Shown here one piece after another: positions 44,811-64,000 of a stretch of DNA of 64,000 bases. The DNA comes from an uncultured Flavobacteriales bacterium. GTDB taxonomy: Bacteria > Bacteroidota > Bacteroidia > Flavobacteriales_D > Crocinitomicaceae. Numbering within the stretch: the first letter of the stretch is position 1; each line of letters starts with the position of its first letter. The notes under the pieces are model-generated. The model was given only the letters and a program-made list of their open reading frames with translations, was not told the DNA's origin and ran no database searches. The translations under genes and the position numbers were made by a program. The stretch is taken from assembly GCA_903945495.1 (NCBI GenBank), contig CAJAVU010000002.1:1-64000 (forward strand), given 5' to 3'.

Positions 44811-45419
44811 ATGGAATCTAGAAAGCAGCATTGGGAAACGGTTTACGAAACTAAAACACCAGAACAAGTCAGTTGGACGCAGGAAAAGCCTGAAGGGTCA
44901 TTGAAATTTATTCATGATTTAGGTTTAGATAAAGATGCTTCAATTATTGATATCGGTGGAGGAGATAGCAAGTTGGTTGATTTTTTACTTGCAGATGGTT
45001 ATTCAGATGTAACAGTTCTAGATATTTCGGGAAAAGCAATTGAACGTGCTAAAAAACGTTTAGGAATGCTTGCCGACAAAGTAACATGGATTGAATCAGA
45101 TATTAATGATTTTGTTCCCTCAAGAACATATTCTATCTGGCATGATCGCGCAGCCTTTCATTTCTTAACCTCAACCGAAGAACAAGAAAGGTATGTCAAA
45201 TTAGTTAATTCGTCAGTCACAGACTTTTTGGTAATTGGTACTTTTTCAGAGGATGGTCCATTAAAATGTAGCGGACTAGAAATTCAACAATATTCTGAAT
45301 CAACAATGGTTGATCAGTTTAGAGGATTTGAAAAAATCAAATGTGAATATGAAAACCACTTAACACCATTTGATACGATTCAAAATTTCATTTTTTGCAG
45401 TTTTAAGAAACTTGGATGA
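44811..45419 (+). CDS. Class I SAM-dependent methyltransferase
   Basis: ASIIDIGGGDSKLVDFLLADGYSDVTVLDISGKAIERAKKRL. Confidence 0.88.
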   Translation: MESRKQHWETVYETKTPEQVSWTQEKPEGSLKFIHDLGLDKDASIIDIGGGDSKLVDFLLADGYSDVTVLDISGKAIERAKKRLGMLADKVTWIESDINDFVPSRTYSIWHDRAAFHFLTSTEEQERYVKLVNSSVTDFLVIGTFSEDGPLKCSGLEIQQYSESTMVDQFRGFEKIKCEYENHLTPFDTIQNFIFCSFKKLG

Positions 45420-45867
45420 TTTCAATATTTTTCCCTTGCCATTCAATTTGTTCTCCTTGTTGTTTTCCAAGTAATAATTGACAAACGGGTGCCATTGGAG
45501 TGATGCAAAATACGCTTGTATCTTCAAATTGAAATGCGCCAATTCCGATTGAAATAAAAAACAAGCCATTCGTTGTTTCGACAAGACTTCCAAGTTCTAT
45601 TTTTTCATGGCTTTTATCAGGTTGTATGCGGAAAAGAATTTCTTTTAGTTTAGTTATTTCTGCAATTTGACTTCCAATCTTTTCTTGCTCCAATTGAGCC
45701 ATAGCTCTTCCAGTTTCATGTTTATCACCAGCAGTGGATTTCGTTTCATTGGCAGTTGAATCCAATGCGTCATTCAGTGAATCTTGAAGATTCGCAGAAC
45801 GTTTTTCAACTTCTTGGATAAGTGCAGAATGCAGTTTCTGTTTAAATGTATTATTGATGGTTGTCAA
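45403..45867 (-). CDS. GreA/GreB-like coiled-coil factor
   Basis: N-terminal coiled coil with acidic/polar tip (STANETKSTAGDKHETGRAM), C-terminal Gre-like domain (IELGSLVETTNGLFFISIG...GKNIEIIQVS). Confidence 0.65.
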   Translation of the reverse strand: MTTINNTFKQKLHSALIQEVEKRSANLQDSLNDALDSTANETKSTAGDKHETGRAMAQLEQEKIGSQIAEITKLKEILFRIQPDKSHEKIELGSLVETTNGLFFISIGIGAFQFEDTSVFCITPMAPVCQLLLGKQQGEQIEWQGKNIEIIQVS

Positions 45868-60771: not shown

Positions 60772-60922
60772 GCGCAGAATGGATATATGACTTTTATCAT
60801 GTTTTCATTTGAATTTTATCATTTCTAAACCTTTTCGTTTACTTTTTCTTTGCAAGGATGAAGAGCCCTCGATTTCAAGAAGGTTATTTCTAATCAAGCA
60901 ATTAACTTAAAACGAATTGAAA

Positions 60923-61858
60923 ATGAGTACTATCGCACCTTCAAAAGAACAGCTTTTAGCTGAGTTTGAATCGAAAATAGCTGCTGAAATGAAAATTGAG
61001 CCAAGAGATTGGATGCCGGATGAATACCGTCAGCACTTAGTTCGTCAAATTTCGCAACATGCACATTCAGAAGTTATTGGTATGCAACCAGAGGGAAACT
61101 GGATAACGCGTGCCCCATCTTTAAGAAGTAAAAAAATACTTTTGGCCAAAATTCAAGATGAAGGTGGTCATGGTTTATATCTATACAGTGCTGCTGAAAC
61201 CTTAGGAATTAGCCGTGAGCAATTTATTCAATGGTTGCACGTAGGAAAAGCAAAATATTCTTCAGTCTTTAATTATCCAGCATTGAATTGGGCTGATATT
61301 GGCGCAATTGGATGGCTTGTTGATGGTGCTGCAATTACGAATCAAGTTTCGTTGCAACGTACATCGTATGGCCCATACTCAAGAGCAATGGTAAAAATTT
61401 GTAAAGAGGAATCGTTTCACCAACGTCAAGGGTACGAAATCATGTGGAAAATGATGGAAGGAACGAAAGATCAACAACAAATGGCGCAAGATGCGTTGAA
61501 TCGTTGGTGGTGGCCAGCATTGATGATGTTCGGACCTCATGACAATGAATCAGCGAATACTTCCAATGCAATGAAATGGAAAATCAAACGCGAATCAAAT
61601 GATCAATTGCGTGAGAAATTCATCAATAAAACAATTCCACAGGCTGAATTAATTGGCTTGAAAGTGCCTGATGCTAATCTTCAATTGTTGGATGATGAAA
61701 CCTACAAACACGGAGATATTGACTGGAATGAATTCTGGGAAGTGGTTAAAGGTAATGGACCTTGCAATCAACAACGCTTAGAACATCACAAACGCGCGCA
61801 TGACAATGGAGCATGGGTAAGAGAAACAGCTTATGTAGCTGGATTAAATCAAAAATAA
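60923..61858 (+). CDS. paaA: 1,2-phenylacetyl-CoA epoxidase subunit PaaA
   Basis: [72 protein letters not shown] 60923 preferred over 60917. Confidence 0.96.
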
Positions 61859-61862
61859 GAAA

Positions 61863-62306
61863 ATGAACAAACAACTTTTGCATCATCATTTAATTCAAAG
61901 TCAAGAAGAAATTATTCAAGACTTACGTGAAAAAATAACTTCTTCAAACGGAATGGTCGATATCGACGAAACAGATACGATAGATCCTGAGGATTTGTCG
62001 CATCAGACAGAGTCGGGTGAAATGAAACATTTGTTTGAGAAAAAACTTTTCCGTGCAGAAGTTGAATTGGAACAATTAAAAAACATGAATGTCGAACCTA
62101 AAACTTCTGTTGAAGCTGGAGCGTTTGTGTCAACCGAAAAATTTCATTTTTTCGTTGGCCATGCAACCATGCCGTTCGATTTTGAAGGTAAACACATTAT
62201 CGGCATCTCTGTTGATTCGCCAATCTTCCCGACAATGAAAGGGAAGGGGCATGGAGATTCTTTTTCTCATGCAGGCAATGATTATACGATTTTAGAAATT
62301 AATTAA
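61863..62306 (+). CDS. GreA/GreB-like coiled-coil protein encoded between paaA and paaB
   Basis: Coiled coil with acidic centre (DIDETDTIDPEDLSHQTESGEM) and C-terminal domain matching the 45403..45867 protein in pattern. Confidence 0.6.
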   Translation: MNKQLLHHHLIQSQEEIIQDLREKITSSNGMVDIDETDTIDPEDLSHQTESGEMKHLFEKKLFRAEVELEQLKNMNVEPKTSVEAGAFVSTEKFHFFVGHATMPFDFEGKHIIGISVDSPIFPTMKGKGHGDSFSHAGNDYTILEIN

Positions 62307-62319
62307 AAAACTTTAGAAA

Positions 62320-62613
62320 ATGGAAGCATCAGAATCACAAGGACAATTATGGGAGGTTTTCATCCAATCAAAACCAGGTCAAGCATTTAAACACGTTGGT
62401 AGTGTTCATGCTTACGATAAAGATTTGGCAGTTGAAAACGCACGTGATATTTACACAAGAAGAGGAGAAGGAACAGGCTTATGGGTTGTTCCAGGAAAAG
62501 AAATCGTTGCGGTAACAATTAACGAGGCGGAATATTTCTTTGAACCAATTGACGAGAAAATTTACCGTCACCCAACTTTTTACGATTTACCAGAAGGTGT
62601 TAAACAAATGTAA
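62320..62613 (+). CDS. paaB: 1,2-phenylacetyl-CoA epoxidase subunit PaaB
   Basis: LWEVFIQSKPGQAFKHVGSVHAYDKDLAVENARDIYTRRGEGTGLWVVP. Confidence 0.95.
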   Translation: MEASESQGQLWEVFIQSKPGQAFKHVGSVHAYDKDLAVENARDIYTRRGEGTGLWVVPGKEIVAVTINEAEYFFEPIDEKIYRHPTFYDLPEGVKQM

Positions 62614-62622
62614 TTCGGAGCG

Positions 62623-63372
62623 ATGGAAACGAAACTAAACTATTATCTACAGATAGCAGACAATGCCTTGATTTTAAGTCATCGTTTGAGCGAGTATTCT
62701 AGCCATGGTCCATTCTTAGAAGAAGACTTGGCGAATACAAATGTTGCCTTGGATTTAATTGGAATCGCTGAGTCAATTTATAATGAATGTGCACGTATTG
62801 AAGGAAAAGGAAGAATTGGAGACGATTTCCCGTACCGTCGTGGTGAGCATGAATTCTACAATTGTTTGTTGGTGGAACAGCCAAATCGCGACTTTGCGTT
62901 TATTATGGTTCGCCAGTTTTTAACAGATGCATTCAACTTTTATTTCTATTCTGAAATGACGAAAAGCAAGGATCAATTCTTGCAAGCTATCGGATTTAAA
63001 GCCATCAAACAAGTGACGTATCATTTGCGTCGTAGCTCTGAATGGATGATTCGTTTGGGAGCAGGAACTGAATTAGCGAATGGTAAAACACAATTTGCAT
63101 TAGATACCTTGTGGAGATACTCACAAGAGTTTTTCGTTGCAAGTGAAGCAGAGGCCGCAATGATTAAAGCGGGAATTGGTGTAGATTTGGAAGTTGTAAA
63201 AGAATTATGGTTCCAAAAAGTAAGAGAAATACTTTACATGTCACATTTATCGATACCTGAAAACCAATTCCAATTGAATGGAGGTAAACAAGGTAAACAT
63301 TCAGAAAATTTAGGATTTATATTGACAGAAATGCAATATTTACCAAGCAAATATCCCGAGGCAAAATGGTAG
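62623..63372 (+). CDS. paaC: 1,2-phenylacetyl-CoA epoxidase subunit PaaC
   Basis: LILSHRLSEYSSHGPFLEEDLANTNVALDLIGIAESIYNE; RRGEHEFYNCLLVEQPNRDFAFIMVRQFL. Confidence 0.95.
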   Translation: METKLNYYLQIADNALILSHRLSEYSSHGPFLEEDLANTNVALDLIGIAESIYNECARIEGKGRIGDDFPYRRGEHEFYNCLLVEQPNRDFAFIMVRQFLTDAFNFYFYSEMTKSKDQFLQAIGFKAIKQVTYHLRRSSEWMIRLGAGTELANGKTQFALDTLWRYSQEFFVASEAEAAMIKAGIGVDLEVVKELWFQKVREILYMSHLSIPENQFQLNGGKQGKHSENLGFILTEMQYLPSKYPEAKW

Positions 63373-63374
63373 GA

Positions 63375-64000
63375 TTAACGTCCAGCCAATTGCATTAATT
63401 TCTCATTATCAATTATTTCAAGTTTGCGGGTGTGAATTTCAATCATGCCCTCATCCTTGAAATCTTTCAATAAACGAATCAAGGTCTCGGTTGCTGTACC
63501 AACAAAGTTGGCCATGTCTTCACGTGTCAAATTGATTTGCTCTTCACCATAAATATCGCCTAAAATCAACAAAGCAAATGCTAAACGTTCACGCACCGAT
63601 TTTTGAGCCATGTTTGTAATGAAAATTGCACGATCACCTAATTCTTTCGATAATTCTTTCATGATACCATTACGCAGCGTTACGTTCGTATCAATCATGT
63701 TTAAGAAATCTTCTTTGCCGATAAAACAAATATTACATTCTTCTAAAGTTGAGGCTGAAACTTTGTATGGTTCACCACTGAACATAGCACGGAAACCAAT
63801 GATTTCTCCTTCTTTCGCAATGTGAATGATTTGTTCTTTTCCTTCGTCCCCGCGTGTAAAGATTTTAACTTTTCCTTGATTCAAACAAAAGACACCACGT
63901 GGGAAACTTCCCTCAATAAATATTGGTTGACTTTTTTTATAGTAAGCGCACGCTTTTTGTTCGTCAACTTGCGATACTTCGTGGTCACAAAAATTACCGA
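63375..64000 (-). CDS. Crp/Fnr-family transcriptional regulator, N-terminus outside window
   Basis: Track start is a TTG; the frame is open to the window edge (GNFCDHEVSQVDEQKACAYYKKSQPIFIEGSFPRGVFCLNQGKVKIF...). C-terminal HTH LTREDMANFVGTATETLIRLLKDFKDEG. Confidence 0.88.
   Translation of the reverse strand, partial: GNFCDHEVSQVDEQKACAYYKKSQPIFIEGSFPRGVFCLNQGKVKIFTRGDEGKEQIIHIAKEGEIIGFRAMFSGEPYKVSASTLEECNICFIGKEDFLNMIDTNVTLRNGIMKELSKELGDRAIFITNMAQKSVRERLAFALLILGDIYGEEQINLTREDMANFVGTATETLIRLLKDFKDEGMIEIHTRKLEIIDNEKLMQLAGR

Follow-up and report, generated by a model that had tools for sequence, protein, structure and literature searches.

A Gre-like gene inside a second paa set

The window, by which I mean the whole 64,000-nucleotide stretch of DNA analysed, carries an open reading frame, here called greX, that starts with ATG, encodes 147 amino acids and occupies 61863-62306 of the forward strand, including the stop codon. 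Four base pairs separate it from the stop codon of the preceding paaA gene and 13 bp from the start of the following paaB gene. On re-reading, the sequence agrees with the original prediction in this placement (gaps of about 4 and 13 bp), and the acidic centre and C-terminal domain quoted there are present. The features are:

60788..60799, + strand: candidate CRP/FNR-type operator box 1, TGACTTTTATCA, centred at predicted position -63.5
60810..60821, + strand: candidate operator box 2, TGAATTTTATCA, centred at predicted position -41.5, the class II activator position
60845..60852, + strand: predicted -7 element, TTTCTTTG (the Bacteroidota consensus, TAnnTTTG, and its position follow PMC9723704)
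60923..61858, + strand: paaA-2, catalytic subunit of the second-set phenylacetyl-CoA epoxidase, 66% identical to the canonical PaaA
61863..62306, + strand: greX, 147-amino-acid Gre-superfamily protein (open reading frame, homology, AlphaFold2, Foldseek)
61959..62006, + strand: tip loop of the GreX coiled coil, residues 33-48, DIDETDTIDPEDLSHQ (alignments, column counts)
62320..62613, + strand: paaB-2 (match to a curated model)
62623..63372, + strand: paaC-2 (match to a curated model), followed by neither paaD nor paaE
63375..64000, - strand: fnr-like regulator gene, convergent to the paa-2 operon and extending beyond the end of the window
45403..45867, - strand: greY, 154-amino-acid paralogue in the Gre superfamily whose acidic tip, AGDKHET, resembles that of GreA

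The neighbours of greX match the models for PaaA (TIGR02156, E 5e-147), PaaB (TIGR02157, E 2.5e-32) and PaaC (TIGR02158, E 1.6e-65), and the EXXH-type motifs of PaaA-2 look intact. Of 296 genomes sampled from the order, 277 have PaaA, usually as a single copy. This genome has two PaaABC sets, one in the window (60923-63372) and the canonical one on contig C19 (L102 6510-9083), where paaA-B-C-D stand with divergent paaE-like genes and without greX. The A, B and C proteins of the two sets are 66, 52 and 45% identical, respectively, and the window set lacks paaD and paaE. In a PaaA tree the canonical and second groups are split (SH-aLRT 99), and all 18 greX-bearing rows fall in the second. Thus the claim that greX sits within the phenylacetate operon is correct as to its position between paaA and paaB but not as to the operon, which is a paralogous second paaABC. 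As this second set has no paaD or paaE and is preceded by FNR-type boxes (see below), it may use a substrate or an electron supply other than that of phenylacetyl-CoA degradation.

A survey of paa operons shows that the insertion is not peculiar to one strain: 18 genomes from three genera have greX between paaA-2 and paaB-2, a count in which related genomes are not independent observations. A contig search with the GreX protein found only one near-identical locus, the sister locus L033, whose GreX is 90% identical. The dN/dS of greX is mostly 0.04-0.09, with a single pair at 0.22 (paaB and paaC values for G011/G014 were left out, the extracted pieces being apparently frame-broken). The constant order paaA-greX-paaB-paaC across these genomes, together with the low dN/dS, makes greX a genuine gene far beyond chance.

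Fold and coiled-coil tip of GreX

GreX almost certainly belongs to the Gre superfamily. An AlphaFold2 model built with 30 related sequences as input (pLDDT 87.5, pTM 0.75) consists of two helices, 3-30 and 42-73, which form a coiled coil around the loop 31-41, and a beta C-terminal domain (85-146) with strands spanning 88-146, the architecture of the superfamily. When this model was compared with the PDB by Foldseek, the first six ranks were all Gre factors, each with a probability of 1.00: GreA (9a7t_B), Gfh1 bound to RNA polymerase (3aoi_X, 3aoh_X), free Gfh1 (2f23_A, 2eul_A) and GreB (2p4v_A). Every match below rank 6 had E > 0.3. The TM-scores against solved Gre factors are just 0.36-0.56, with 3aoi_X at 0.56, and a differing angle between the two domains of the model may be part of the cause.

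Sequence comparisons point the same way. Searched alone against Pfam and NCBIfam, GreX matches no family, those of PaaA-E included; 15 of the 30 members of its alignment match PF01272, and an independent hmmsearch of PDB sequences with the GreX profile recovered Gfh1 (E 0.0015), GreB (E 0.047) and, weakly, Rnk (E 0.82). The by-eye pairing of GreX with the protein encoded at 45403..45867, which I call GreY, proved to be true homology: BLASTP gives 26% identity over 150 positions (E 8e-12 as a single comparison), a search of the genome with GreX returns GreY as the sole other match (E 3e-6), and profile-profile alignment is full length with 99.6% probability (E 1.4e-24). GreY is predicted to have the same fold. 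Foldseek, the PDB profile search and GreY together bear out the Gre reading of the fold; a predicted structure without a Gre fold, which had been named as the observation that would overturn it, is not what AlphaFold2 and Foldseek give.

Other Gre-like proteins occur among the genomes examined. A standard GreA is also encoded in this genome. One genome (G044, L026 814-1770) has a tandem pair of GreY-type genes, and a third type with a DQHDLDQ tip is found in G308 and G263 (L117 4183-4641 and L118 4500-4958), preceded in both by two TGAYN4RTCA boxes 26 bp apart.

What distinguishes GreX is its tip. Across 15 GreX-type homologues drawn from several families, invariance within the coiled coil is confined to D33, D35, D41, P42, E43, D44, S46 and Q48, all eight of which fall within the tip loop. 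The paired acids of the superfamily tip are represented by the invariant D41 and D44, accompanied by D33, D35 and E43. The canonical GreA of the same genome reads GDLSENAEY at this point and GreX reads DPEDLSHQ; the Asn and Tyr of the cleavage-factor signature GDxxENxxY are replaced by Leu, Phe or Tyr at position 45 and an invariant Gln at 48. An acidic tip without the cleavage residues is a feature of Gfh1 and of Rv3788, a Gre homologue of M. tuberculosis that inhibits RNA polymerase (PMC4598747). In cleavage factors the Asn and Tyr hold the backtracked RNA, and their absence was offered as the reason why Rv3788 does not cleave (PMC3132773). In the C-terminal domain, the Ser of the SP motif, probably the equivalent of GreA S119, is Ser in 14 of 17 sequences and Ala in 3.

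GreX might be a transcript-cleavage factor of the ordinary kind, a further GreA that rescues backtracked polymerase and is simply induced at low oxygen, and the Gre fold and the acidic pair spaced i,i+3 at the tip would suit this role. I consider it rather improbable, however, because the RNA-holding residues discussed for Rv3788 (PMC3132773) are replaced, the second acid is Asp and not Glu, further tip acids are conserved and a standard GreA is already encoded in the genome. With the tip acids kept and the cleavage-factor Asn and Tyr missing, GreX is most likely non-cleaving.

The tip also recalls DksA. The pattern DP.D.[AS].Q is present in 17 of 17 GreX-type proteins and in 0 of 13 other relatives, and the tip of E. 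coli DksA reads DPVDRAAQ, in which Asp71 and Asp74 are required for function (PMC2613031). A protein acting at initiation in the manner of DksA/TraR, with a tip that has converged on that of DksA, is therefore conceivable from the sequences but unlikely: the motif is short, GreX has no zinc-finger domain, and the resemblance is not significant, since the ungapped score of GreX against E. coli DksA was reached by 195-893 of 1000 shuffles and a profile of the GreX tip found no DksA in the PDB. Homology between the two coils was rejected on these same results, and the DksA resemblance is a lead only. Nor does GreX match PF01258, the C-terminal domain of the model being of Gre type.

Operator, likely regulon and retention of greX after paa loss

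In the regions upstream of the second sets I noticed by eye, and then tested as a stated pattern, the motif TGAYNNNNRTCA (TGAY-N4-RTCA), with shuffles, canonical paaA promoters and greY-type genes as controls. It occurs in 21 of 24 second-set promoters, counting those of G019 and G026 where only greX remains, and in 0 of 10 canonical paaA promoters, against a shuffling expectation of about 0.03 per promoter; here too related genomes are not independent. Many of the second-set promoters contain another TGA-N6-TCA 22 bp downstream of the first. Enrichment of exact 5-bp palindromes, looked for upstream of paaA-2, failed to pick out this operator. The spacing is nearly fixed: in 20 of the 21 boxed promoters a TTTG lies 55.5-56.5 bp from the box centre, or 33.5 bp when measured from the second box. 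CRP/FNR activators of class II classically bind at -41.5. Flavobacterium promoters have their -7 element, TAnnTTTG, at -12 to -5 (PMC9723704), and this position, taken with the box-to-TTTG distance, puts the conserved CRP/FNR-type boxes upstream of the operon at about -63.5 and -41.5. The predicted start of the paaA-2 transcript is near 60857.

The paa-2 promoters were the discovery set, and the independent tests are the greX copies outside paa operons, hemN and a genome-wide count. Of five off-paa greX genes, three carry a box at this same distance from TTTG (shuffling P 0.004-0.009 for each), as against 0 of 11 greY-type controls; the exact spacing was not found at the greX promoters of G604 and G075, and no FNR-type box lies upstream of the greY of this genome. 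Three of the five hemN promoters examined have a box 33.5-34.5 bp from TTTG. Across this genome the class II pattern occurs 33 times, some of them inside genes, compared with 6 in a reversed control, and it stands upstream of hemN, moeA, an MFS transporter (C87) and others. A c-type cytochrome and a ModE-like regulator, both by eye, are further likely members of this set.

The gene convergent to the paa-2 operon encodes an FNR-like protein (Fnr model NF008365 at E 4.7e-25, short of the curated cut-off). Beyond the window it is followed by hemN, a copper-type P-type ATPase, ccoS, ccoNO, ccoQ and ccoP, so that a cluster of fnr, hemN, copper ATPase and cbb3 oxidase genes (L003 3379-12066) adjoins the second paa set. 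The FNR-like proteins share a CxxC and further conserved Cys. In F. psychrophilum, cbb3 oxidase and haem genes go up under oxygen limitation (PMC9723704). Judged from these patterns, an FNR-type regulon is likely in this genome, and the greX operon is very probably under FNR-type control.

The fate of greX where the epoxidase genes decay separates it from its operon partners. In G019 and G026 paaABC-2 has been lost, and greX is intact with the operon promoter kept. By eye, the sequence upstream of greX in G026 reads ELT, a stop, VTAETLLKEFQVKIAAKVKI and another stop, which is the start of paaA-2 interrupted by stops, with the start of greX close behind; the reading frame of greX is intact, its dN/dS against G048 is 0.075, and G048, of the same genus, has an intact paaA-2. 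In G019 the upstream sequence ends in EHHNKAHEEG, a fragment of the paaA-2 end, and downstream stands MEACENKG, resembling the start of paaB-2 (both by eye). A further decaying second set, in G010 (L181 1507-1746), retains a stop-bearing remnant of paaA-2, and greX is gone.

In other families greX stands outside any second paa set (G075, G047, G580, G604 and G1007). In G075 the gene row around it also encodes a histidine kinase, a receiver-CRP regulator and universal stress proteins. The copy in G047 (L037 6307-6995) has one in-frame TGA near its end and is preceded by a 92-amino-acid gene that by eye looks like a heavy-metal-associated domain and has no NCBIfam match. In G604 (L158 6223-9781) greX is followed by TauE, an MBL-rhodanese gene and rhodanese and thioredoxin genes, the last two recognised by eye; the neighbourhood is of sulphur type.

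The original prediction had taken GreX to be dedicated to the phenylacetate pathway, or a Gre fold recruited to the epoxidase complex. A chaperone, assembly or regulatory factor devoted to the second PaaABC, with the Gre fold as a protein-binding scaffold, would agree with the order paaA2-greX-paaB2-paaC2, constant across 18 genomes from three genera, and in genus g1 I found no second set without greX. Yet greX and its promoter outlast paaABC-2 in two genomes, it occurs in five without neighbouring paa genes, second sets without it exist in G149, G237, G034, G279 and G068, and its invariant residues are at the coil tip, as in factors of the polymerase channel. The dedicated epoxidase helper was rejected on the paaA scars and the off-paa copies, and I give it little chance; recruitment to the epoxidase complex is unsupported for the same reasons.

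One could also suppose that greX was captured by a convenient promoter and has a weak or redundant role, having inherited paa context and box passively. Most genomes sampled from the class and the phylum lack greX, and it was lost in G010, a loss that, coming together with paa-2, also counts against the explanation I prefer. However, dN/dS values mostly of 0.04-0.09, a tip invariant across families and an equally spaced box before greX genes in unrelated contexts make passive capture improbable as well. As far as sequence can tell, greX is more tightly associated with the FNR-type operator than with epoxidase genes. The low-oxygen-type control site and the two relatives in which greX outlives the epoxidase genes suggest that its job is probably low-oxygen transcription and not phenylacetate breakdown.

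Proposed role and comparison with known factors

The explanation I favour, and think reasonably probable, is that GreX is an FNR-controlled, non-cleaving regulator of the RNA polymerase secondary channel for low oxygen. As a GreA paralogue it would bind RNA polymerase through its C-terminal domain and insert its acidic tip (D41 and D44, with D33, D35 and E43 around them) into the secondary channel, where it would slow or re-tune initiation or catalysis like Gfh1, Rv3788 or DksA, most likely without stimulating RNA cleavage. Under oxygen or energy limitation, an FNR-type regulator, very likely the product of the adjoining fnr-like gene, would activate the paaA2-greX-paaB2-paaC2 promoter along with hemN and the genes of the cbb3 oxidase. 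The second paa set would thus supply greX with an FNR-type promoter, and GreX would not serve the epoxidase. More tentatively, part of the Bacteroidota may possess an oxygen-responsive Gre paralogue with a DksA-like tip, induced by an FNR-type regulator encoded beside the cbb3 oxidase genes, that re-tunes RNA polymerase itself as oxygen becomes scarce.

Secondary-channel factors such as GreA, GreB, DksA and Gfh1 govern the starting, pausing and recovery of RNA polymerase. We know of no described Gre or DksA factor that links respiration to global transcription. A conserved low-oxygen-type operator at a Gre paralogue would give one such factor a clear trigger and open the link between respiration and transcription to direct tests in a phylum whose promoters are unusual. 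For several secondary-channel factors the physiological role is still open (PMC4598747). That greX outlives its operon partners is also a warning against reading function from operon membership.

Compared with known systems, the second paa set keeps the order paaA, paaB, paaC of the canonical paaABCDE operon but is 45-66% identical to it, lacks paaD and paaE, contains greX and has an FNR-type operator. With GreA and GreB, GreX shares the two-helix coiled coil, the beta C-terminal domain and an acidic pair at the tip, and its C-terminal SP...GK..GD motif is as in GreA; it differs in lacking the GD-x-x-EN-x-x-Y cleavage signature and any Pfam or NCBIfam match, and in having an FNR-type promoter. 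Rnk has a short coiled coil that leaves the active centre out of reach, whereas the GreX helices are 28 and 32 residues long. The GreY-type proteins of Bacteroidota (AGDKxET tip) are homologous to GreX over the full length but have another tip sequence, and none of 11 greY-type genes has the FNR-type box. DksA/TraR proteins resemble GreX in the tip motif DPxDx[AS]xQ; GreX has no zinc finger, a different, Gre-type C-terminal domain and no significant sequence similarity to them. Rv3788 is like GreX in lacking the cleavage-factor Asn and Tyr. Gfh1 gives GreX its strongest sequence-profile match and some of its strongest fold matches, and both proteins have many tip acids, although identity is about 16%, the tip sequences differ, and the literature searched mentions no low-oxygen promoter for Gfh1, whereas GreX has one predicted. 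In that literature, which was covered in part, I found no published description of a Gre paralogue with the GreX tip and a low-oxygen-type promoter. An invariant tip of its own and this type of promoter set GreX apart among Gre paralogues.
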